The notes under the pieces: generated by a model
The model's database searches: none
The model's input: only the letters and a program-made list of their open reading frames with translations
What the model was told of the DNA's origin: nothing
Assembly: GCA_017429525.1 (NCBI GenBank)
Contig: JAFROT010000034.1
Coordinates: 48,697 to 112,696, forward strand
Length of the DNA stretch: 64,000 nucleotides
DNA from: Bacteroidaceae bacterium
GTDB taxonomy: Bacteria; Bacteroidota; Bacteroidia; Bacteroidales; Bacteroidaceae
Direction of reading: 5' to 3'
Made by a program: the position numbers and the translations under genes
In this document: positions 44,294 through 57,981 of the stretch, piece after piece
Layout: the number at the start of each line of letters is the position of its first letter
Position numbering within the stretch: the stretch's first letter is position 1

Positions 44294-46933
44294 ATGCAAC
44301 GACTCCTATATATATTATATATGATGCTGGCCGTCCATGTGTCGGCTCAGGTAAAGGTAACTGGGCGAGTGATAGACCTGCAGAACAAGCCCGTGAGTGA
44401 CGTTATTGTGAAACTGGTGAGCGGCAGCAAGACGCTGGCGTTCACCAGCAGTAACGCGCAGGGCGAGTATAGTCTGGAGTTGAAAAGTGCGCCAACGGGA
44501 GAAAGGCTACGGGTAGGCGAGCAAAGCTCGGGAATGGTGACGCTGCAGTTCAACCACGTCGGCTATGAGAAGGAGCCGGAACAAGTGACGCTGAAAGATA
44601 AGGTCACGAAGATAGACATGATTCTCACTCCGAAGAGCATCAGTCTGAAGGAGGTGACGGTGAGGGCAGATCCGCTGCGGCAACGTGGCGACACGCTGAG
44701 CCACAACCTCGCGTCGTTCCTCGGCAAGGGCGACGTGACCCTGGAGGACGGGCTGAAGCGGTTGCCAGGCGTGGATGTGGCGAAAAGCGGTGCCATCAGC
44801 TATATGGGTAAGCCCATCTCACAGTTCAACATCGAGGGGCTGGACCTGCTGGGCGGCAAGTATAACCTGGCCACGCGGAACATCCCGGCGGACTACGTGA
44901 CGAACGTAGAGATTGTGCGCAACCACCACAGCCGACGGGTGGAGAAGGACGTGCCGAGCAACGAGGTATCGATGAACATCAAACTGGCCAAGAAGGCGAA
45001 GTTCAAACCATTCGGACAGGAAGAGGCGGGCGTTGGATACATGGAGGACGGGAACGATAGGTTGCAAGCCCTGCTCGGCGTGACGGGCATGATGTTCACC
45101 GACAAGTTCCAGACCATCTGCTCGCTGAAGGGCGGCAACTACAAAGATTTCGCACGGGCCGACATGAGAGATCACTTCGGCGGCTCGGACGTGACGACGC
45201 CAGCCACCAGTCTGTTCGGCGGCTTCGACGGCGGTGCACCTCCACAGGGCGAATACCTCTATCAGCGCAACGGCATGGCGACGCTCAACGGAATCCATAA
45301 GCTCGACTCGGCCACGACGGTGAAGGTGAATGCCGACTACAGCTACCACCGCGCCACGCACGACATCAGCCAGAGCAGCACGTATCTGACTGGCACAGGC
45401 GACTACGTAACCGTGAGCGAACAGACCTCACCGCTCACGAAGGTGCATCTGCCCAAGCTGACGATGAACTACCTGAAGAACGCCGACCGCGTGTATCTCA
45501 GCGAAACGTTCGTTGTAAAGGGGAAGTTTGAGCAGAACGAAGGTGATGTGATGGCTAATCAGCAGTGGGTGGAGCAGCGGAGGAAGACATCTTCGTTTGA
45601 GGTGGGCAACGACCTGTTCTGGATGGGCAGGACGGAGAAGGGCGCACGGCGACACGTCAATGCGTCGGTGGCGTTCAGGCGGACACCGATGCTTAGGCTG
45701 TCATTCATGAACGACGGACAGGGCTACGGCCAGACGGCGCAGTCATCGACGCTCTCAATGAACGTCGGCTCGTCGTTCCAGATTCCCATCGGCAAAACAT
45801 TCCGGCTGAATCTGCCCGTCAGTATTTCAGCAATGCATGACGACCTGGAAACTATCTACTCCCCTCCCTCCACGGGAGGGGGCGGGGGTGGGTCTGTCAA
45901 CGACATTCGCGGCTGGTCGTTCACTCCCAGCCTGAATCCCGGCTTCGAGATACATTCGCGCAACCGCCGCTTCTACCTCAGTGCTGGACTGGGTGCTGCA
46001 CTGAAGGGACTTTATTATAACAAACTCAACTATACCAAGCCCGTGCTCAATCCTTCGATGAGCATCAACTATACCTTCTCGGCCAACAGCAAATTGCAGT
46101 TCTCAACGGGCTACACGACCTCGATAGGCGATATGATGACGCTGCTGACCGAACCGATGCAGGTGGACTACCGCACGGTGCGCACTTCGTCGGGCATCAT
46201 CGGCGAGTCGAACACCTGGAGCACGTCTGGCGAGTGGAAGTGGCAGCTGCCCATGCAGTACTTCACGCTGAGCCTGGTCGCCAGCCACAGCGAGGGCAAG
46301 CGCAATACGCTTTATTCGCAGAGCATCAGCGGCATAGACATCAGCAGCAGTGCCCTGCAACGCGACACCCGCAGCCGCTCCAGCAACTTCTCTGTCAGCA
46401 GCACGAAGAACATCCCGTCGCTCTTCGCCAAACTTGGGGTTGACGCGACCTACGGCTTCGGCGACAGCGAGCAGGCCATCACCTCCTCGGAAGGGGCAAC
46501 GGACATCATCAAGGTGCGCTCCAGCAACTACAACCTCCACGGCAATGCCTCCATTACACCTGTCCAGTGGCTCGAACTGCGCTACGACATTCGCTACGGC
46601 TGGTCACGCTCCCGCTACGCCGAGGAGAGTAACACCATGACCTCCCTCACCCACAGCGGCGCCCTGCACATCTTCCCCATCGCCACCCTCGACCTCGCCG
46701 TCAGCTACGACCATGTGCGCCGCCAGCTCATCGCCGACCAGTACAAGCGCATGTCACTTTTCAACGCCTCGGCCCAGTACAAATGGAAGCGCCTCGTACT
46801 CCGCTTGGAACTCGACAATCTTCTGAACCAGCGCCACTATGCCTATACTGTCTTCGACGGCATCAACACCTACAACTACGACTACGGCCTGTGTGGTCGC
46901 ACCGCCATGCTCCGTGCCACTTTCAAGCTATGA
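44294..46933 (+). CDS. Outer-membrane beta-barrel receptor, CarboxypepD_reg N-terminus (GLPGLI-linked)
   Basis: This 879-aa protein has a signal peptide (LLYILYMMLAVHVSAQ). Residues ~20-110 form a carboxypeptidase-regulatory-like domain (KVTGRVIDLQNKPVSDVIVK). Next is a plug-like domain (LEDGLKRLPGVDVAKSG, FNIEGLDLLGGKYNLATRNI, VEIVRNHHSRRVEKDVPS) and then a long barrel ending YDYGLCGRTAMLRATFKL. It belongs with the outer-membrane beta-barrel family related to TonB-dependent receptors. The substrate is unknown. One palindromic element (45859-45895) encodes a TGGGGGGS stretch around residue 530. A conserved 3' element with a hairpin follows. Confidence 0.88.
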   Translation: MQRLLYILYMMLAVHVSAQVKVTGRVIDLQNKPVSDVIVKLVSGSKTLAFTSSNAQGEYSLELKSAPTGERLRVGEQSSGMVTLQFNHVGYEKEPEQVTLKDKVTKIDMILTPKSISLKEVTVRADPLRQRGDTLSHNLASFLGKGDVTLEDGLKRLPGVDVAKSGAISYMGKPISQFNIEGLDLLGGKYNLATRNIPADYVTNVEIVRNHHSRRVEKDVPSNEVSMNIKLAKKAKFKPFGQEEAGVGYMEDGNDRLQALLGVTGMMFTDKFQTICSLKGGNYKDFARADMRDHFGGSDVTTPATSLFGGFDGGAPPQGEYLYQRNGMATLNGIHKLDSATTVKVNADYSYHRATHDISQSSTYLTGTGDYVTVSEQTSPLTKVHLPKLTMNYLKNADRVYLSETFVVKGKFEQNEGDVMANQQWVEQRRKTSSFEVGNDLFWMGRTEKGARRHVNASVAFRRTPMLRLSFMNDGQGYGQTAQSSTLSMNVGSSFQIPIGKTFRLNLPVSISAMHDDLETIYSPPSTGGGGGGSVNDIRGWSFTPSLNPGFEIHSRNRRFYLSAGLGAALKGLYYNKLNYTKPVLNPSMSINYTFSANSKLQFSTGYTTSIGDMMTLLTEPMQVDYRTVRTSSGIIGESNTWSTSGEWKWQLPMQYFTLSLVASHSEGKRNTLYSQSISGIDISSSALQRDTRSRSSNFSVSSTKNIPSLFAKLGVDATYGFGDSEQAITSSEGATDIIKVRSSNYNLHGNASITPVQWLELRYDIRYGWSRSRYAEESNTMTSLTHSGALHIFPIATLDLAVSYDHVRRQLIADQYKRMSLFNASAQYKWKRLVLRLELDNLLNQRHYAYTVFDGINTYNYDYGLCGRTAMLRATFKL
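45859..45895. repeat. Solo X-type palindromic element, in frame
   Basis: This 37-bp GC-rich palindrome is the same sequence that forms the right end of the 141-bp composites (ends GTCTG-side GGGGGTGGGTCT), with one extra base. It encodes PPSTGGGGGGS. Confidence 0.85.
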
Positions 46934-48238: not shown

Positions 48239-51200
48239 ATGAAACGACTATACCTCATTATATATGTGTGCGCGGTGACCATATTTTCTTTATCCGCACA
48301 AGCAACAACTCTCCCCCAGGGGGAGCGGGAAGGGGGGCTGTCCCTTGCTACCGTACTTGCCGCCATCCGCGATGCGCAGACGGACTACACCATCCACTTC
48401 ATCCACAACGACCTGGAGCACCTGCGCGTCTCGGCACGCATCAAGGACAAGGATGCACGCAAGGCCGTGAAACAGGCGTGCAAGGGACTCCCCGTGAAGG
48501 TGAAGACGCGTGGCCAGAACATCTTCGTGCAATATAATTCCGAAAAAGACCTGACAGGCAAGACCATTAACCTCGCGGGAGCGGTGGAAGACGGTTTTCT
48601 GGAGCGTCCGCTACCTCATGCCAAGGTCTCTATACTCCGCACCGACAGCAGCGTCGTGGTGGATTCTGCACAAATCGTTGTGTTCTACAAGGGCGACATG
48701 ACCCCGTTCAGGGCACAGTTCAACGCTGATGTGAGTGCTGCCGAAAAGGAATACCTCGTCCGCAGTAGCATGGAGGGCTATGACGACGTTTGGCAGCGCG
48801 TTGCCATCCCCCATCCTCTGCCAGAGCAGGTGGAGGTGCCGACGCTGAAGATGCGCAAGTCATCGGCCAAAACCATGCGCGAACTGACCGTCACGGCCAC
48901 GAAAATCAAGATGTTCTGGCGCGGCGACACGCTCGTCTACGACGCCACCGCCTTCCGCCTGCCCGAAGGCTCTATGCTCGACGACCTCATCCGTCAGCTG
49001 GAAGGCGTGACGATGAACGCCGATGGCGAGATCTTCGTCAACGGGCGCAAGGTCGACGAGCTGCTCCTCGGCTCCCGCTCCTTCTTCGGCGGCAACAAGA
49101 AGGTGCTGCTGGAGAATCTGCCCTACTACACGGTCAAGAACCTGAAGGTCTACGAGAAACAGACCGACAAAAGCATGGCACTGGGCTACGACGTCGAGCC
49201 GCGCCGCTACGTGATGGATGTCAACCTGAAGGATGAATACAGCCAAGGGTATATCGGGAATGTGGAAGCGGCAGGAGGTACACAGGAGCGATGGCTTGCC
49301 CGCGGTTTCCTGCTCGGCTTCACCGATAAGCTACGGTTCACCCTCCTGGCCAACGCGAACAATGTCAACGAAGGGCGTCACATCGGGAAGGACGACCACT
49401 GGACCCCGGCACGGCAGCCGCGTTCGCTCTTGACCACCCGCAGCGTGGCTGGCGAAATCAACTATCAGACCAAAGGTGACGCACTGAAAGAGACCTTCCG
49501 CGCAGAATACACCTCCACGACCGACGAGCAGACGATGCAGCAGCAGCGCGACTACTTCATCAGTGACGCCGCCCTCACCTCTGCCACCTCCTCCTTCAAC
49601 CGCATGGGCAACCGCAAGCTGAACCTCAACAACACGTTCTCGCTATCCAAACCCTTCTTCCTCTACGCCCGGGCTGGTTACAACTATGCCCGCCGCGACG
49701 GCTCCTTCAACTCCGCCTTCGACCAGTGGAGCGACAGCCTCACCGTCTCGCAGCGCACCGTGGGCATCAGCGAGGGCCGCGCATGGGGAGCCAACTTTGA
49801 TGTGCAAGGAGCCTTCAACGTGGGCCAAAACAAGCAGCACCTGGACTACTACTTCAACTTCAGCCACAGCAACGACGAGAGCGAGAGCGCCACCCGCTAC
49901 GCCACACAGGCCGTGGTGCGCCCGACGGTTTTCCCGTCGAGCCAATCTGCCTCCACCACCCACAACTACTCCTCCCTCTTCAACCGCAACACCAGCTTCC
50001 TCAGCAATCTGGGCTACGGTTGGGAGTTAGCCAAGAACCTGAACCTTGGCATCTCTGACTTCTTCTACATCCGCAACCGCCACGACCGCGACTACCTTTA
50101 TCATCCCAGCTCCAGCAGACCCACCCCCGACAGACCCACCCCCGACCCCTCCCGTGAGGGAGGGGAGACCTCCGGCTTGCTGGGAGGACTCGAGCGTAGC
50201 GAGGCTCTCCCCCTCACGGGGGAGCGGGGAGAGGGTCTTGAGCCGGGAGAGGGTCTCCTCCCTTCTCAGATCGATGCCCTTGCAGCCTTCTTCGACCCCT
50301 CCAATTCCTACGACAGCCACGACCTCGACTGGTCCAACAACTTCGGCATCAATCTTTATAGCAACGCCTACTATATCCACCCGCTCGCTCACATGAAGAT
50401 CAGCTACCAGCGGCTTGCGCTGGAGCTGGGCACGCCGCTCAGCCACGAACGCCTGCACTACCAGCGCGGCTCGCTCGACACGCTGGCCCGCCAGACCGTC
50501 TTCCTCCCGAAGGCCACCTTCCGCTTCCGCAACGTCTGGAAGGGCGGACAGCGCAGCATCAATGGCAACATCCGCTTCGAGCAAGAACGCACCCTCCTGC
50601 TCGACCGCATCAACTTCCGCGACGACAGCAAGCCCCTTGTCGTCAAGCTGGGCAATCCCGACCTGAAGCCCAAAGCCATGACGTCCTTAGGATTCAGCTA
50701 TTACGACTCAACCGGACCGAAGAATGCATCCTACAACCTCGCCGGCAACTTCTTCTACCACCACCGCGACATCGCACAGTCCTTCACCTACGACCCCGTC
50801 ACCGGCGTCAGCATCTACCGCCCGATGAATGTCAGCGGAGCCTATCGCGCCCACGCCGAATTCGGCACCGACCGCACTATCGACGAGAAGCGCTACTGGA
50901 CCTGGCACGTCAATACCGGAGCAGATTTCGACCACTCCAAAGACCACGCCCTGCTGGAGAATGCCCTCGAGAGCAGCGTCAACACCGTGAACACCCTCAC
51001 CCTCAACGCCGGGGGCAACATCCGCTATAACCGCAAGACCCTCAACATCCGCGCCGTAGGCTATATCAATTGGCGAAAGAGCAGCAGACCCACCCCCGAC
51101 CCCTCCCGTCAGGGAGGGGAGAAGACCCTCTCCCCGCTCCCCCGTAAGGGGGAGAGCCTCGCTATCGCTCGAAAGCTGCGCGCCAGCCAACTCCCCTCCC

Positions 51201-51592
51201 TCACGGGAGGGGTCGGGGGTGGGTCTGCTGGGTCTTTGTCTGTACTCGACTTCCAATACGGCCTCGAAGCCAGCTATACTACACCCGCTCTCTGCGGCAC
51301 CAAGGTCGGAGGCCTCACCCTCTCTGCCGATGCCACTATGTTCAATCGCCGTGGCTATGGCACGGCCGACCTCAATCGCCACGATTTCGTCATGAACGCA
51401 TCCCTCAGTCAGCCTTTCCTGAAAGGCAAACTCATCCTTCGCCTTGAAGCCTTCGACCTACTGCACCAACTCTCACCCATCGACTATGACGTCAACGCGC
51501 AGGGGCGCACCATCACGTGGTACCGCTCGCTCCCGCACTACGTCATGCTCCATGCCGCCTGGCACTTCAATAAGAATCCCAAGAAGAAATAA
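48239..51592 (+). CDS. Large outer-membrane receptor with STN domain, interrupted by in-frame palindromic elements
   Basis: This 1117-aa protein has a signal peptide (YLIIYVCAVTIFSLSAQA), then a Y-type insert (LPQGEREGG). Next is an STN-like domain (TVLAAIRDAQTDYTIHFIHN, ARKAVKQACKGLPVKVK), a plug-like region (DLIRQLEGVTMNADGEIFVN, KVLLENLPYYTVKNLKVYEK) and a long barrel. STN domains in receptors contact FecR-type anti-sigma factors, so this probably signals through the two preceding genes. Elements at 50117-50264 and 51086-51226 add about 50 residues each of Pro/Gly-rich sequence, presumably in loops. A conserved 3' element follows. Confidence 0.86.
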   Translation: MKRLYLIIYVCAVTIFSLSAQATTLPQGEREGGLSLATVLAAIRDAQTDYTIHFIHNDLEHLRVSARIKDKDARKAVKQACKGLPVKVKTRGQNIFVQYNSEKDLTGKTINLAGAVEDGFLERPLPHAKVSILRTDSSVVVDSAQIVVFYKGDMTPFRAQFNADVSAAEKEYLVRSSMEGYDDVWQRVAIPHPLPEQVEVPTLKMRKSSAKTMRELTVTATKIKMFWRGDTLVYDATAFRLPEGSMLDDLIRQLEGVTMNADGEIFVNGRKVDELLLGSRSFFGGNKKVLLENLPYYTVKNLKVYEKQTDKSMALGYDVEPRRYVMDVNLKDEYSQGYIGNVEAAGGTQERWLARGFLLGFTDKLRFTLLANANNVNEGRHIGKDDHWTPARQPRSLLTTRSVAGEINYQTKGDALKETFRAEYTSTTDEQTMQQQRDYFISDAALTSATSSFNRMGNRKLNLNNTFSLSKPFFLYARAGYNYARRDGSFNSAFDQWSDSLTVSQRTVGISEGRAWGANFDVQGAFNVGQNKQHLDYYFNFSHSNDESESATRYATQAVVRPTVFPSSQSASTTHNYSSLFNRNTSFLSNLGYGWELAKNLNLGISDFFYIRNRHDRDYLYHPSSSRPTPDRPTPDPSREGGETSGLLGGLERSEALPLTGERGEGLEPGEGLLPSQIDALAAFFDPSNSYDSHDLDWSNNFGINLYSNAYYIHPLAHMKISYQRLALELGTPLSHERLHYQRGSLDTLARQTVFLPKATFRFRNVWKGGQRSINGNIRFEQERTLLLDRINFRDDSKPLVVKLGNPDLKPKAMTSLGFSYYDSTGPKNASYNLAGNFFYHHRDIAQSFTYDPVTGVSIYRPMNVSGAYRAHAEFGTDRTIDEKRYWTWHVNTGADFDHSKDHALLENALESSVNTVNTLTLNAGGNIRYNRKTLNIRAVGYINWRKSSRPTPDPSRQGGEKTLSPLPRKGESLAIARKLRASQLPSLTGGVGGGSAGSLSVLDFQYGLEASYTTPALCGTKVGGLTLSADATMFNRRGYGTADLNRHDFVMNASLSQPFLKGKLILRLEAFDLLHQLSPIDYDVNAQGRTITWYRSLPHYVMLHAAWHFNKNPKKK
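48309..48340. repeat. Solo Y-type palindromic element behind the signal peptide
   Basis: CTCTCCCCCAGGGGGAGCGG, then GAAGGGGGGCT: a shortened Y unit in frame, encoding LPQGEREGGL at the start of the mature protein. Confidence 0.75.
50117..50264. repeat. Composite X-Y palindromic element, decayed right end, in frame
   Basis: A 15-bp partial copy of the X end (AGACCCACCCCCGAC, 50117-50131) precedes a complete left X end from 50132. A Y unit follows in the same orientation as at 55808-55948. The right X end is replaced by diverged sequence. It encodes RPTPDRPTPDPSREGGE and EALPLTGERGEGL. Confidence 0.85.
51086..51226. repeat. Composite 141-bp palindromic element, in frame
   Basis: The left end (AGACCCACCCCCGACCCCTC, continuing to 51121) and right end (51191-51226) are inverted copies of about 36 bp. 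The interior is reversed relative to the equally long element at 55808-55948. It encodes RPTPDPSRQGGE to LPSLTGGVGGGS. Confidence 0.92.
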
Positions 51593-51680: not shown

Positions 51681-51789
51681 AATATTCATGTATTGTTAAC
51701 AAAGGTTAAAGTTAGTCCATCTCGCGTGATATTTGTCTTCCACAACGTTATATAGTATAGCAGCCACACATAAGCAACGGCGCAGACTA

Positions 51790-52350
51790 ATGGCAACAGA
51801 CGAACAACAACTCATACAGGACATCCTCGGCGGACGCACAGAAGCGTTCGGCACGTTGGTCAGGCGCTACGGTGCTCCGTTGACAAGCTTCGTTGCCTGC
51901 TTCGTGGCCCAACACGACGACGTGGATGAAGTGGTGCAGCAAAGCTTCGTGGCTGCCTTTGAGCATCTCTCTCAGTACGATGCCTGCCGCGCCAGCTTCA
52001 GCACTTGGCTTTGGCGCATTGCACGCCACACCGCCATCAAGCACCTGACGCGTCGACGACCGCTATTCATCGAGGAACAGCAAGGAGCCGTGCAAAGTCT
52101 GACGGACAGCGAGGCCGACGACCTCCTGCGTGAAGCCACGGATGCCCGCATCGCCATACTCCAGCGCGCTACCGACCTGTTGCCACCCGATGACCAACTG
52201 CTGTTGCACCTCTATTATGCAGAGCAACACCAGCTAACAGACATCGCCTACATCTTCGACACAAACGCCAACGCCCTCTCCTCGCGCCTCTACCGCATAC
52301 GCCAACACATCGCCCAACTCATAAAACGTTTTGAACATGAAGCAGAATGA
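51790..52350 (+). CDS. ECF sigma-70 family sigma factor
   Basis: This 186-aa ECF sigma factor has region 2 (FGTLVRRYGAPLTSFVACFV, DDVDEVVQQSFVAAFEHLSQ, STWLWRIARHTAIKHL) and region 4 (DLLPPDDQLLLHLYYAEQHQ, LTDIAYIFDTNANALSSRLY). I chose the ATG at 51790 over a TTG 19 codons upstream. Its end overlaps the next gene by 14 nt. It heads the third receptor operon, parallel in layout to 47104-51592. Confidence 0.92.
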   Translation: MATDEQQLIQDILGGRTEAFGTLVRRYGAPLTSFVACFVAQHDDVDEVVQQSFVAAFEHLSQYDACRASFSTWLWRIARHTAIKHLTRRRPLFIEEQQGAVQSLTDSEADDLLREATDARIAILQRATDLLPPDDQLLLHLYYAEQHQLTDIAYIFDTNANALSSRLYRIRQHIAQLIKRFEHEAE

Positions 52351-53119
52351 CCACATACCTAAAGACAACGCCCTGCGCCAAGCCCTCAGGCTGCGCGCCG
52401 AGCGGTGCATGGCAGAGAACCCCGTGCCTGCAGACCTCGAGGGCCTCGTCATGCAGCGAATCCTGCGGAGCAAGCAGCAGCCAGCCACGCGCCGCCGTAG
52501 CCTGATGCGCTTACTTCCCTGGTCCATAGCTGCAGCACTCCTCGTCGGCTTCACACTGATGAAGGCCCTCTACCAGCTCCCCCATGAAGGGGAGAAGACC
52601 CTCTCCCCGCTCCCCCGTGAAGGAGAGAAGACCCTCTCCCCGCTCCCCCGTGAGGGGGAGAGCCTCGCTACGCTCGAGTCCTCACGGCAAGTTGGAAACT
52701 TCACCTCACATAAGGAAGAAGGGAAAGTCCTCGCTATGATCCCAAGCATGGAAGAAAACAGCCCCATCCCCGGCAGACCCAGCCCAAGCAGCCCCAACAG
52801 ACCCACCCCCAACCCCTCCCATAAGGGAGGGGAGTTCCTATCCCCGGACAGACAAGCGGATATGCAAGTCCCCCCTCGGGGGGATTTAGAGGGGGCTCTC
52901 CCCTCCCTGACGGGAGGGGTCGGGGGTGGGTCTGTCGGGGGTGGGTCTGCAGAAGAAGCTTCTCCCATTCCGCCCGAGAAACAGGCGCTGGCTGATATCT
53001 ATCTGGCTGAAGTAGCCCTGCAGGTGGCCTATCGTAAGCAAGCCGCAGAGGAAGCCGTGCGCGCCTATCAGGCCGGCATCACCGGCGAAGAGACACGACA
53101 ACCGATCATTGCATTTTAA
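52337..53119 (+). CDS. Membrane protein in anti-sigma position, half composed of palindromic elements
   Basis: This 260-aa protein has a cytoplasmic N-terminus (1-58) with LRQALRLRAERCMAENPVPA, like the FecR-type N-terminal helix bundle, then a membrane helix (about 60-76, LLPWSIAAALLVGFTLM). Residues ~80-205 are almost entirely encoded by X and Y palindromic elements (GEKTLSPLPREGEKTLSPLP, RPTPNPSHKGGE, LPSLTGGVGGGSVGGGS). The last ~50 residues form a helical segment (KQALADIYLAEVALQVAYRK). It is presumed to be the anti-sigma partner of 51790-52350. The frame stays open through all elements. Confidence 0.75.
   Translation: MKQNDHIPKDNALRQALRLRAERCMAENPVPADLEGLVMQRILRSKQQPATRRRSLMRLLPWSIAAALLVGFTLMKALYQLPHEGEKTLSPLPREGEKTLSPLPREGESLATLESSRQVGNFTSHKEEGKVLAMIPSMEENSPIPGRPSPSSPNRPTPNPSHKGGEFLSPDRQADMQVPPRGDLEGALPSLTGGVGGGSVGGGSAEEASPIPPEKQALADIYLAEVALQVAYRKQAAEEAVRAYQAGITGEETRQPIIAF
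52574..52690. repeat. Tandem Y-type palindromic elements, in frame
   Basis: A partial unit and two further units in reverse Y orientation share the AAGACCCTCTCCCCGCTCCC core, followed by GAGAGCCTCGCTACGCTCGA. The core is the inverse of the Y segment at 50132-50264. Confidence 0.88.
52799..52948. repeat. Composite X palindromic element (135 bp) plus 15-bp end duplication, in frame
   Basis: X ends at 52799-52834 and about 52898-52933 face each other across an interior unlike Y. A 15-bp copy of the right end (GTCGGGGGTGGGTCT) follows. Both 135 and 15 are multiples of three. Confidence 0.88.
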
Positions 53120-54406: not shown

Positions 54407-57319
54407 ATGTCCCATCTCCCTCGCTCCCTGTTCCTGCTGCTCTGCGTCCTCCTTCTTGCAGTCCTGCCCCTGCGTGCCGACATCCTCAAGGGGCGCATCG
54501 TGGATGCCGAGACAAAGGAGCCGCTGCCCGAAGCTTCGCTGAAACTGGCACAGACCATCGACTACAACGGCCGGACGGCAACAATGGTCATGCACAGCAC
54601 GGCCGACTCCCTGGGCTGCTTCCACCTCAATCTGCGCGGACGCGGCATGCTGGAAGCGTCGATGCTGGGCTACTACTCCAAGACGAAGACCGTGCTGGGC
54701 TTCTCCGAAGACAGGAAAGACACCGTGGACGTGGGCGATATCGAGCTGAAGCCTTCCGAGACGCTGATGAAGATGCTCGAGGTGAAAGGGCGTGCACGAC
54801 GTTTCACCGTACGCGGCGACACCATCGTTTTCAACCCCGAAGCCTTCCACCTGCAGGAAGGAGCGCGCCTCGACGAGCTCATCCGCCAGCTGCCCGGCGT
54901 GGAGGTGGCCGAGGACGGCACGATGACGTGGAACGGCAAACCCATACGCATCACCATGGACGGCGAGAGCCTCTTCGGCGGCGACGACATCGTCAGCCAA
55001 CTGCCGGCAGAGGCCGTGGAGAGCATCAAGGCCTACAACAAGGCGTCGAAGTTCAGCGAGCGCACAGGCAAGGACGACGGCGGCGAGGACATGGTGCTGG
55101 ACCTCACCATCAAGCCCGGCTTCCTCGACCGCTGGTATGGCGACGCCACCGCCGAGTATCAGACGCCCAAGCACTACGATGCCGAACTCAGCATGAACCG
55201 CCTCTCGAAGACCGACCCCGCCATGTTCTTCGTCGATGCCAACAACGTGGACAAGCAGCATCACCGCTCCATGAACGGAGGATGGAGCAGCTGGAGCAAC
55301 GGCTACGGGCAGGGGCAGAGCGCGGCCGGCGGCTACCAGCACAACTGGAACCGCGAGGAAGGCAAGCAGAAGCTGAGCAACCACTACAGCGTCAGCGGAG
55401 GCCTCTCGCACTTCGACCGCTGGAACAACACGCGCATCGAGACGGAGAACTTCCTCGAAGAAGCCGACGTGAAGCGCACCTACACCGAGAAGTACAACCG
55501 CAACCACGACCTCAGCCCCAACCTCAGCACCTATTTCATCTGGGACCCTGACACGCTGAACACCTTCCACTTCGAAGCCAATGCCGACTTCTCACGCAAA
55601 CGCTCCAACGGCCACACCGACACCGAGCAGGAAGGGCTGCTGCGACAGCTCACGCGCCGCAACGGCGAAGGCCACGAAGTACGCTTCAGTAGTGAAGGCA
55701 CCTGGTACCACTTCATGAAGGGCGATGCCGAACTCGGCGCCAGCTACAAGATCAGCTACACCAACAGCGAGGACGAGCAATGGACGGAAAGGGAAATAAG
55801 ACCTGAAAGACCCACCCTCGACCCCTCCCGTGAGGGAGGGGAGTTGGCTGGCGCGCAGCTTTCGAGCGATAGCGAGGCTCTCCCTCTCAAGGGGGAGCGG
55901 GGAGAGGGGCTTCTCCCCTCCCTGACGGGAGGGGGCGGGGGTGGGTCTTTCACCCAATACTCCCGCACCCCCTCCACCGCCTTCTCCCTCAGCGCTGAAG
56001 GCCACTACAAGCAATGGCTCGCGAAGCGGTGGCTCTTGGGCACCACCTACGAGTTCAGCTACAAGCGCAACCGCAGCCGTCAGCACTTCGAGACCGACGG
56101 CACGGCCGACGCCGCCAACAGCTATCGCGACCACAACAACCTCCTCAGCCACGGCCTCAACCTTAGCTCAACCGTCGACCTCAGTCCCGTGAAGATCATG
56201 CCGAGCCTCAAAGCCTACTGGCAACGCGAGCATCAGGACTACCAGCGCGGACAGCTCGATACTACAGCCACACGCCGCCGGCTGCTGCTTACGCCCTCGG
56301 TGCGCATGACGTGGAAGATGGCCAAGACCATCGGCTTGGAGCTTAACTACAGCCACGCCACCACGCAGCCCTCGCTCATCAGCACCCTGGCCTACCGCGA
56401 CCTGACCGACCCGCTCTACATCACCGAGGGCAACCCACGCCTGCGCGACACCCACACCCACAACGCACGCCTGAACTTCAACACCGTGCTGGCTCGCCAG
56501 CAGCTCTCGCTCAGCTTCAGCGCCGACTACAAACAGAGCGACCGCGAGACGCGCACTGCCCTCACCTACCAACCCACTACGGGCATATACACCAGCCGCC
56601 CCGAGAACGTGCGAGGCACGCAGGCATGGACCTTCCGCCTGAACTACGACCAAGGCCTGGGCGAAATCGTCCGCCTGCAGAACGACCTGAGCCTCACGAC
56701 CGAGCAGAGCTACGCCCTCCTCACACAGATCTTAGCCTCAACTCCAGCCGTCCCGTCTCTTCAGCTGCCATTCTATGGCAGCCCTCCTCCTGCAAGCGAT
56801 GGCTCTGTCATCGCATCTCCCCTCCCCCTCGACGGAGGCGGGGATGGGTCTTCCTCCCTCAACCGCCGCCGCCAGCTCCGCCTCACCGAGCGCCTCACCG
56901 TCTCTGCCGACTGGAGCTGGCTGAAGCTCTCCGCCTTCGGCGAGCTCTCGCCCAACCGCCTGCGCTTCTCTGTCTCGGACGAGCAAAACACCACCCTCTG
57001 GCAGAACCGTTTCGGCCTGCGCGGCGAAGCCACCTGGCGTCAGTTCGTCTTCGAAAGCTCACTGACCGAACAGATGTACGACGGCTACACCATAGCGAGC
57101 ATGAACCGCAACCTCCTCGTCTGGGACGCCTCCGCCACCTGGAAGTTCCTCAAGAACAAGGCGCGCCTCAAGCTGGAGCTGAACGACATCCTCAACGCCA
57201 AGGACGGCAAGTACATCAGCCAGAGTGCCTACCAGCAGACCGTCACCCGCCGCGACTTCCGCCACCACTACATCAGCCTCAGCTTCACCTACCACCTCGA
57301 TGCAAAGACGAAAGAGTGA
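54407..57319 (+). CDS. Outer-membrane beta-barrel receptor, CarboxypepD_reg N-terminus, with in-frame palindromic elements
   Basis: This 970-aa protein has a signal peptide (LFLLLCVLLLAVLPLRA). Next are a regulatory-like domain (LKGRIVDAETKEPLPEASLK), a plug-like region (LDELIRQLPGVEVAEDGTMT, RITMDGESLFGGDDIVSQLP, KAYNKASKFSERTGKDDGGE) and a barrel ending YISLSFTYHLDAKTKE. It is related to the receptors at 44294 and 48239 but lacks the STN domain of the latter. A 141-bp composite element (55808-55948) inserts 47 residues and a solo X element (56817-56851) about 12. Expression may depend on the 8-bp tandem repeats before the ATG. The substrate is unknown. Confidence 0.87.
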   Translation: MSHLPRSLFLLLCVLLLAVLPLRADILKGRIVDAETKEPLPEASLKLAQTIDYNGRTATMVMHSTADSLGCFHLNLRGRGMLEASMLGYYSKTKTVLGFSEDRKDTVDVGDIELKPSETLMKMLEVKGRARRFTVRGDTIVFNPEAFHLQEGARLDELIRQLPGVEVAEDGTMTWNGKPIRITMDGESLFGGDDIVSQLPAEAVESIKAYNKASKFSERTGKDDGGEDMVLDLTIKPGFLDRWYGDATAEYQTPKHYDAELSMNRLSKTDPAMFFVDANNVDKQHHRSMNGGWSSWSNGYGQGQSAAGGYQHNWNREEGKQKLSNHYSVSGGLSHFDRWNNTRIETENFLEEADVKRTYTEKYNRNHDLSPNLSTYFIWDPDTLNTFHFEANADFSRKRSNGHTDTEQEGLLRQLTRRNGEGHEVRFSSEGTWYHFMKGDAELGASYKISYTNSEDEQWTEREIRPERPTLDPSREGGELAGAQLSSDSEALPLKGERGEGLLPSLTGGGGGGSFTQYSRTPSTAFSLSAEGHYKQWLAKRWLLGTTYEFSYKRNRSRQHFETDGTADAANSYRDHNNLLSHGLNLSSTVDLSPVKIMPSLKAYWQREHQDYQRGQLDTTATRRRLLLTPSVRMTWKMAKTIGLELNYSHATTQPSLISTLAYRDLTDPLYITEGNPRLRDTHTHNARLNFNTVLARQQLSLSFSADYKQSDRETRTALTYQPTTGIYTSRPENVRGTQAWTFRLNYDQGLGEIVRLQNDLSLTTEQSYALLTQILASTPAVPSLQLPFYGSPPPASDGSVIASPLPLDGGGDGSSSLNRRRQLRLTERLTVSADWSWLKLSAFGELSPNRLRFSVSDEQNTTLWQNRFGLRGEATWRQFVFESSLTEQMYDGYTIASMNRNLLVWDASATWKFLKNKARLKLELNDILNAKDGKYISQSAYQQTVTRRDFRHHYISLSFTYHLDAKTKE
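55808..55948. repeat. Composite 141-bp palindromic element, in frame, opposite internal orientation
   Basis: It has the same ends as 51086-51226 (starts AGACCCACCCTCGACCCCTC) and exactly the same length, but the Y core and its flank are reversed. It encodes RPTLDPSREGGE to LPSLTGGGGGGS. Confidence 0.92.
56817..56851. repeat. Solo X-type palindromic element, diverged
   Basis: 35 bp starting CTCCCCTCCCCCTCGACGGA and ending GGATGGGTCT. It encodes SPLPLDGGGDGS within the barrel region. Confidence 0.75.
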
Positions 57320-57705: not shown

Positions 57706-57810
57706 TACACTTTAGCACTCTTCTACACTTATTTAAATGATTATCAAATAAATAACTACTTCGAAAACGGTGCAGTTTAGGTGCAATTTAGGGTGTAAGA
57801 GTGTAGCTTG
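57706..57810 (+). repeat. 105-bp iteron-like unit, solo copy
   Basis: The outer TACACTTTAGCACTCTT (57706-57722) is identical to the virE arms. Then 45 nt of unrelated sequence, then a diverged 43-bp block (GGTGCAGTTTA, GGTGCAATTTA, GGGTGTAAGA, GTGTAGCTT). Spacing and total length equal those of the two virE copies. Confidence 0.9.
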
Positions 57811-57881
57811 ATAACGAAAACGATAACGAAAACGATAACGAAAACGATAACGTTAACGATAACGGTAACGATAACGATAAC
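57810..57881 (+). repeat. 12-bp tandem repeat (6 units of GATAACGNNAAC type)
   Basis: Three GATAACGAAAAC units are followed by GATAACGTTAAC, GATAACGGTAAC and GATAACGATAAC. It abuts the 105-bp unit; nothing is encoded. Confidence 0.9.
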
Positions 57882-57981
57882 GAAAGCTACTTGTCAACTA
57901 GAATCCGCTTGTCCGCTCTAATTCTGCTTGCTTCGCTCTGCGAAAAGCTTGTTGTCTGCGTAAAAGCTATCGGAATAAGGC

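Follow-up and report, generated by a model that had tools for sequence, protein, structure and literature searches.

Dispersed palindromic doublets, probably REPIN-like, in frame in receptor-type and core-enzyme genes of a rumen Bacteroidales genus

The stretch of 64,000 nucleotides analysed here (the window; Bacteroidaceae bacterium, assembly GCA_017429525.1, contig JAFROT010000034.1, positions 48,697 to 112,696) carries two palindromic units, at 51086-51226 and 55808-55948, each lying in frame in a receptor-type gene. These units belong to a dispersed family whose presence differs between orthologues and whose members are found in frame in unrelated genes, including those of core enzymes. 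They are probably copies of a mobile palindrome resembling the REPINs, i.e., doublets of repetitive extragenic palindromic (REP) sequences, in which two inverted 36-bp hairpins surround a short variable core; such REPIN-like doublets are best read as selfish elements tolerated in protein loops. The register that runs from AGA to TCT is stop-free on both strands in the two units and is mostly the one found in genes, and the same element was found in opposite orientation in two species at one site.

Both units are exactly 141 bp long. Their identity is 99/141 in direct orientation and 135/141 once one of them is reverse-complemented, so that the interior is reversed between the two. The 36-bp inverted ends pair at 35/36 positions in 51086-51226 and at 33/36 positions in 55808-55948, and in both genes the reading frame enters through AGA CCC (Arg-Pro), leaves through GGG TCT (Gly-Ser) and contains no stop. 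The initial annotation, made from the sequence without database searches, had claimed these features and had described a small non-autonomous in-frame repeat with inverted ends whose used register is free of stops in either orientation; this description was borne out. Its claim that a length divisible by three is a property of the element was not supported: inverted pairs range from 102 to 219 bp (110 bp in locus L044), and the frame is preserved at the level of the complete allele.

The family is built from a 36-bp hairpin, which occurs singly or as a doublet; this REP-like hairpin reads AGACCCACCCCCRACCCCTCCCGTSAGGGAGGGGAG, and the end sequence of the element is AGACCCACCCCC. The 51086-51226 unit has a single-strand folding energy of -57.5 kcal/mol (z = -8.4), a stability reached by 0/200 shuffles. 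The single ends are less significant than the whole unit (left 36-bp hairpin, -10.2 kcal/mol and z -2.1; right 36-bp end, with its own hairpin, z -1.7). A scan of the window against Rfam gave no match at the gathering score, and a known structured RNA was rejected on this basis.

The genome search proposed along with the initial annotation reached beyond the two units, to further copies in the window (45860-45895, 50118-50250 and 52799-52933; Table 1) and to at least 71 units in 55 clusters of the genome that holds the window (own genome). BLAST with the 141-mer gave 115 matches in this genome, most of them to the ends. The unit count was obtained with the 21-mer GACCCACCCCCGACCCCTCCC at up to three mismatches, for which the reversed control gave 0 units, and is a lower bound that leaves diverged BLAST copies uncounted (e.g., C31:42224-42377). 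By the 21-mer, 41 of the 55 clusters are single, 10 are >< pairs and four are of other make-up, some of the "single" clusters having a more diverged partner by BLAST (e.g., C51, C42, C37). Clusters holding a >< pair number 12/55 in the own genome and 28/79 at other Bacteroidales loci. The family has two of the features by which REP/REPIN membership is judged, a short palindrome at high copy number and inverted doublets forming a larger hairpin. At the same time, exact AGACCC starts and exact GGGTCT ends were found in 29 of 42 inverted pairs (11 from the own genome and 31 from other Bacteroidales loci, a few of them nested).

The family was found in 93/121 sampled genomes of the genus (up to three mismatches) and in 36/201 genomes of the taxonomic family, in 9/30 genera (up to two mismatches). 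The 141-mer BLAST was positive in 25/61 genomes (own included), all within the genus, and in 0/24 genomes from other families of the order. Many of the named matches were ruminant Prevotella or Prevotellaceae metagenome-assembled genomes. In Xylanibacter brevis ATCC 19188, which was taken to be a cultured strain of this group, a copy lies right after a TAG, and no frame of more than 150 codons spans it. The exact 21-mer pattern GACCCACCCCCRACCCCTCCC was also matched in sphingomonad genomes, where the repeats are mostly divergent <> pairs (37/56 clusters) of about 111 bp (e.g., L139, L150, L188), nearly all outside genes. The sphingomonad repeats are likely a separate family, whose likeness may reflect convergence or shared origin. 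Note that the named-contig sets comprise 62 Bacteroidales and 49 sphingomonad loci kept of 117 (two of the latter labelled only 'uncultured bacterium Sph-'), six loci of other phyla having been dropped; that the own-genome set left out L065, which overlaps the window, and L060, whose one REP sits in L061; and that clusters too near a contig end were left out (0 own, three other Bacteroidales, five sphingomonad).

The position relative to genes was judged with a codon model trained on the long open reading frames of the same loci, a cluster being in frame when both its flanks fall into one stop-free frame. In-frame copies inside a gene accounted for 23/55 own clusters, 29/76 scorable clusters of other Bacteroidales and 4/51 scorable sphingomonad clusters; one coding flank only was seen for 11 own and 10 other Bacteroidales clusters, and 21 and 37, respectively, were not in one frame. 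Stricter margins gave the same frame on both sides in 21/55, of which 19 are in frame, as L042 and L064 hold stops. Random positions passed the same test more often (59.5% in own, 56.4% in other Bacteroidales and 53.3% in sphingomonad loci), so that the Bacteroidales repeats are mildly and the sphingomonad repeats strongly excluded from genes, and gene enrichment of the elements was dropped as a claim. The earlier suggestion of an element adapted to living inside genes thus stands insofar as 23 of the 55 clusters are in frame and falls insofar as genes are mildly avoided.

Many protein genes with no relation to each other carry the palindrome as an in-frame insert, the feature that marks the Rickettsia palindromic elements (RPEs). 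A Pfam scan of 20 host open reading frames outside the window, three of which (L039, L043, L073) are not among the 23, found a family above the cut-off in 18, the exceptions being L044 and L063. The hosts include UvrA, CTP synthase, an AIR-synthase-like protein, H+-PPase, CbiC/tetrapyrrole methylase, the RsmF methyltransferase, threonine synthase, HATPase histidine-kinase-type proteins, glycoside hydrolase family 2 proteins and an electron transfer flavoprotein; DnaG primase is the host of a variant repeat. Four host proteins were compared with the chains of solved homologues, and in three of them the insert falls between nearly adjacent chain residues (128 and 131 in CTP synthase, 604 and 607 in UvrA, 328 and 329 in threonine synthase). 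The threonine synthase gene has two inserts, the other one adding 11 residues behind chain residue 120. In two histidine-kinase-type hosts (L039 and L048) the element lies in an ATPase-domain loop that, by eye, looks shared between the two and follows NLVKNAVEAGARRI / NIVKNSVESIG.

Orthologue comparison, for which six orthologues of the first receptor-type gene (48239..51592) and 12 of the second (54407..57319) were aligned, showed that relatives with nearly identical flanks are without the element. At the 55808 site, where this genome has 145-147 bp, 19-21 bp are present in genomes G111, G139 and G002, whose flanks are 95-98% identical, and at the 51086 site G111 and G099 (flanks 92-99% identical) carry another 61-64 bp, the element being absent. 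Orthologues all carrying the segment, or boundaries not shared between copies, had been named in advance as findings that would speak against an element, and neither was encountered. The same loops are occupied differently in other relatives, by a different REP-like doublet, in frame, at the 55808 position of G015 and by a single REP of the AGACCC family, in frame, at the 51086 position of G017. At the sites L044 (receptor-like, no Pfam match) and L048 (histidine-kinase-type), different palindromic families or none were present per species at the same codon position. In total, 56 flank comparisons were tried at eight sites, and 41 aligned on both sides (19/27 + 22/29); the allele length difference to this genome was a multiple of three in 41/41 and non-zero in 38, these comparisons not being independent events because related species share alleles.

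Other repeats were seen around these sites as well. A palindrome of the CAAGCCCCTTCCC...GAAGGGGGCTT type, 101 bp long, is present at the L044/L048 sites in G002 and G066, and an AT-rich GTGAAAAGTGAA...TTCACTTTTCAC family in G002, G065 and G100. Positions 4082-4180 of L044 hold another repeat of ~98 bp and different sequence, with many near-identical copies across the genus. The stretch 3681-3973 of L049 matches two places on one G139 contig, which suggests paralogous blocks in a palindrome-rich region around it.

The AGA register, open on both strands, encodes the peptides RPTPDPSREGGE / LPSLTGGVGGGS. It is used at 20/23 own loci (expected 11.2, z 4.1) and at 19/29 other Bacteroidales loci (expected 11.3, z 3.4), where only registers that are stop-free in each unit count as possible and the counts are not independent between related copies; UvrA (L041), the L048 kinase and L063 are the own loci that use another register. 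For the 36-bp unit, this register contained no stop on either strand in three of three variants tested, and the other two registers were stop-blocked in some of the three. Among nine doublets tested, it was open both ways in five (51086, 55808, L044, L048, L049) and not in four (52799, L039, L059, L034); the L042 doublet, which is not in one frame and stands outside the nine, contains stops on each strand. In G071, the element at the L044 site is inverted in place, its core matching at 38/38 positions in inverted and at 20/42 in direct orientation, between flanks that are identical at 235/250 and 227/250 positions. The register bias may arise because a unit flipped in place would survive only with a register open in both directions, as this one case suggests.

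If the units are REPIN-like mobile palindromes, new copies would land, or be recombined, at many places, and the survivors would be those keeping the frame, without a stop, in a tolerant protein loop, where they could persist as soluble Pro/Gly-rich loops; the inverted ends would allow flips in place and could thereby favour a register open both ways. There is virtually no chance that the units are ordinary receptor protein loops that look palindromic by coincidence: they are translated in frame in both receptors, but the same DNA occurs in unrelated genes and outside genes, both strands are used, and its absence from orthologues with 92-99% identical flanks refutes this explanation. Ordinary receptor variation was rejected for the same reasons. 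Another candidate is a miniature inverted-repeat transposable element (MITE), that is, a non-autonomous derivative of a DDE insertion sequence whose 36-bp terminal inverted repeats are cut and pasted by its transposase. The exact boundaries shared by 29/42 pairs and the pair size speak for a MITE, which is nevertheless quite unlikely, as each end is itself a hairpin, 41/55 own clusters are single by the 21-mer (if some with a diverged partner), and the check for a target-site duplication recommended in the initial annotation came out negative, direct duplication being found in 0/42 pairs for k = 3 to 7 and in 5/42 at k = 2 against 3.3 expected. This absence fits movement by a REP-associated tyrosine transposase (RAYT) better than that of a classical MITE and is no proof. 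Flanks that are reverse-complementary to each other showed a mild excess (6 vs 1.2 expected at k = 4), perhaps due to tandem repetition of the tail itself.

Spread and change without a dedicated transposase, mainly through recombination and template switching (gene conversion, hairpin-primed slippage) among palindromes in loops where such sequences were present before, would agree with several of the site comparisons: the elements of G000 and G111 at L048 differ within identical outer boundaries, several palindromic families occupy one codon position across species at L044 and L048, the L044 element is inverted in place, and in G111 the interior of the 50118 copy is another one. It is unlikely as an explanation, since ~55 sharp-ended clusters in unrelated places and copy-free species at the same sites need a route to new sites.

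For a REPIN-like element such a route could be movement as single-stranded hairpin DNA by genome-encoded HUH/Y1 transposases of the RAYT type, which would be the weakest step of the proposed mechanism; RAYT-type mobilisation is plausible from co-occurrence. The RAYT-like HUH/Y1 protein P0001 has 11 matching stretches in the own genome and matches in 79/121 genomes of the genus; its motifs were read as DHLH and YLRDNP, by eye without the W[QE] motif, and its Y1_Tnp scores are 21-23 bits at a cut-off of 23. The median number of copies per genome was 13 in RAYT-positive and 1.5 in RAYT-negative genomes (Mann-Whitney p 1.2e-6), a link that is correlation only because the genomes are incomplete and related. 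Other GC-rich hairpins lie in the open frame of the RAYT gene at 10/19 loci (L293, L294, L298, L299, L300, L301, L305, L306, L307, L309), with several situated between the HuH part and the Y part, a count for which no chance control was made. These hairpins, e.g., ACTGCGGCAATGCCGCAGT-CTAC (GTAG-type foot on the other strand), differ between paralogues, and the RAYT linkers are hypervariable and of low complexity.

RPEs, reportedly described by Ogata et al. in 2000 and 2002, are said to be palindromic elements of ~100-150 bp that lie in frame in unrelated genes and form several families. Going by this description, the present elements share with them the size, the in-frame position in unrelated genes and the occurrence in several families, and differ in their make-up, two 36-bp hairpins around an invertible core, and in having one register that is open both ways. 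RPEs are cited in the available parts of PMC10969869 and PMC3733652, and according to the latter RPE-4 and RPE-6 are REPs. The available text of the same source (Di Nocera et al. 2013, PMC3733652) describes REPs of the GTAG and CGTC families as palindromes of 20-40 nt at high copy, many as inverted dimers, most of them intergenic and some in frame in unrelated proteins including uvrA; the word 'Prevotella' does not occur in its main text. The AGACCC element resembles these REPs, as far as they are covered there, in its short high-copy palindromes, inverted dimers, in-frame gene copies and uvrA host, and differs in having rumen Prevotella relatives as hosts; 23/55 of its clusters are in frame in genes, and intergenic positions are given there for the majority of REPs.

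RAYT subclass 2.4, with a mean length of 194 aa and in-frame REPs inside the RAYT genes, is abundant in Bacteroidetes according to the available part of PMC6006769. The present system shares with that account the inverted REP doublets, the RAYT genes with an HUH/Y1 core and the in-frame palindromes in RAYT genes. In contrast to it, the palindromes in the RAYT genes here are of other families (GCTGCGGCA..., some with a GTAG foot) and not AGACCC, and the stop-to-stop frames measure 282-504 codons (24 frames). The element behaves like a REPIN, and within its hosts it behaves like an RPE. The statement in the initial annotation that no such element had been described for Bacteroidetes is too broad, given the in-frame REPs and dimers already in print (PMC3733652), also in a Bacteroidetes-rich RAYT subclass (PMC6006769), as far as the available parts of these sources go; what is left of it is that a partial literature search, with subscription journals mostly outside, found no description of in-frame palindromes in Prevotella genes.

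Several observations weigh against the REPIN-like reading or parts of it, in addition to the dependence among register counts noted above. The consensus has no GTAG (GT[AG]G) or CGTC foot, the foot of the 36-bp unit being, by eye, CCGA and AG, and the unit was therefore not filed under either REP superfamily. On the transposase side, P0001 reached 40.7 bits with the NCBIfam model REP_Tyr_transpos (REP-associated tyrosine transposase), at a cut-off of 80; at least 10 copies were present in 7/42 RAYT-negative genomes and none in 12/79 RAYT-positive ones; and the sole related repeat in the RAYT flanks (about 1.5 kb) lies 1.2 kb off. On contig C5, the two closest units lie 1.7 and 2.5 kb from the RAYT gene; the idea that this gene is flanked by cognate REPs, taken as proof, was dropped, as an AGACCC-type REP was found inside the RAYT gene in 0/50 RAYT loci examined. 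Compared with random positions, the own-genome copies show no enrichment in genes, and the stretch that the element encodes in H+-PPase stands in for a loop of similar length and is not an additional one. The short 55808 allele of G111, G139 and G002 (CGACGGACCCAGCAGGTCT) holds end-like letters, which makes loss as possible as gain; this allele may be the scar of a loss and not the pre-insertion state. Finally, in-place inversion comes from one site, the other shared site, L048, having the same orientation, and the L044 case might also have arisen by independent insertion in opposite orientation.

As far as the available parts of the literature go, genes with in-frame palindromes are on record chiefly for Rickettsia and for some further species, most of them proteobacteria. 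The rumen Bacteroidales genus studied here (139 genomes) has many such genes, core enzymes included, and close relatives are without the inserts; the long-standing question of neutral passengers versus raw material for new loops in proteins can therefore be put to the test by species comparison, proteomics and structure. The both-ways-open register combined with in-place inversion offers a concrete hypothesis for coding compatibility. A further-reaching idea, doubtful at present, is that of an element class shaped for genes, which would have a register open both ways, flip in essential genes, swap hydrophilic loop peptides without loss to the host and compete, family against family, for loops. 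For annotators, loops such as RPTPDPSREGGE and LPSLTGGVGGGS are to be expected in predicted proteins.

Table 1 Copies of the palindromic family and their host genes in the window
Feature	Coordinates	Strand	Remarks
REP-like inverted doublet, 141 bp	51086..51226	+	in frame in first receptor-type gene; peptide RPTPDPSRQGGE...LPSLTGGVGGGS
Left 36-bp REP unit	51086..51121	+	tail AGACCCACCCCCGA + hairpin CCCCTCCC-GTCA-GGGAGGGG
Right 36-bp REP unit, inverted	51191..51226	-	
Second 141-bp doublet, opposite internal orientation	55808..55948	-	in frame in second receptor gene
Doublet, 135 bp, different interior	52799..52933	+	in frame in anti-sigma-factor-like gene; common to G111
Interior-module copies (CCCTCTCCCCGCTCCCCCGTGAGGGGGAGAGCCTCGCTA), without full REP ends	52596..52677	+	BLAST match C30:101292-101373
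Partial or rearranged copy	50118..50250	+	in first receptor-type gene; single REP 50132-50167 + interior module
Single REP unit	45860..45895	-	in frame in third outer-membrane-type gene
Host gene, 1117 aa, receptor-type	48239..51592	+	name from the initial annotation
Anti-sigma-factor-like host gene	52331..53119	+	NCBIfam antisigma 24.7 bits, far under cut-off 100
OMP_b-brl_3 outer-membrane beta-barrel host gene, 970 aa	54407..57319	+	70.1 bits, cut-off 27
Host gene, 879 aa	44294..46933	+	carboxypeptidase-regulatory-like + OMP_b-brl_3 matches, all under cut-offs

The further copies in the window also vary between relatives. The G111 version of the 50118 copy has a 55808-type interior, and G099 and G098 carry another loop; the single REP at 45860-45895 is present in G120 and G069, G099 and G137 being without it. 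The protein of 48239..51592 gave no Pfam or NCBIfam match at E 0.01, and its G002 orthologue contains a segment that is similar at the DNA level to the second receptor (73% over 108 bp). A sigma-70 family factor (51733-52350) adjoins the anti-sigma-factor-like gene. Downstream of the second receptor gene, positions 57810-57885 of the window hold a tandem run of GATAACG/GAAAACG-like units.

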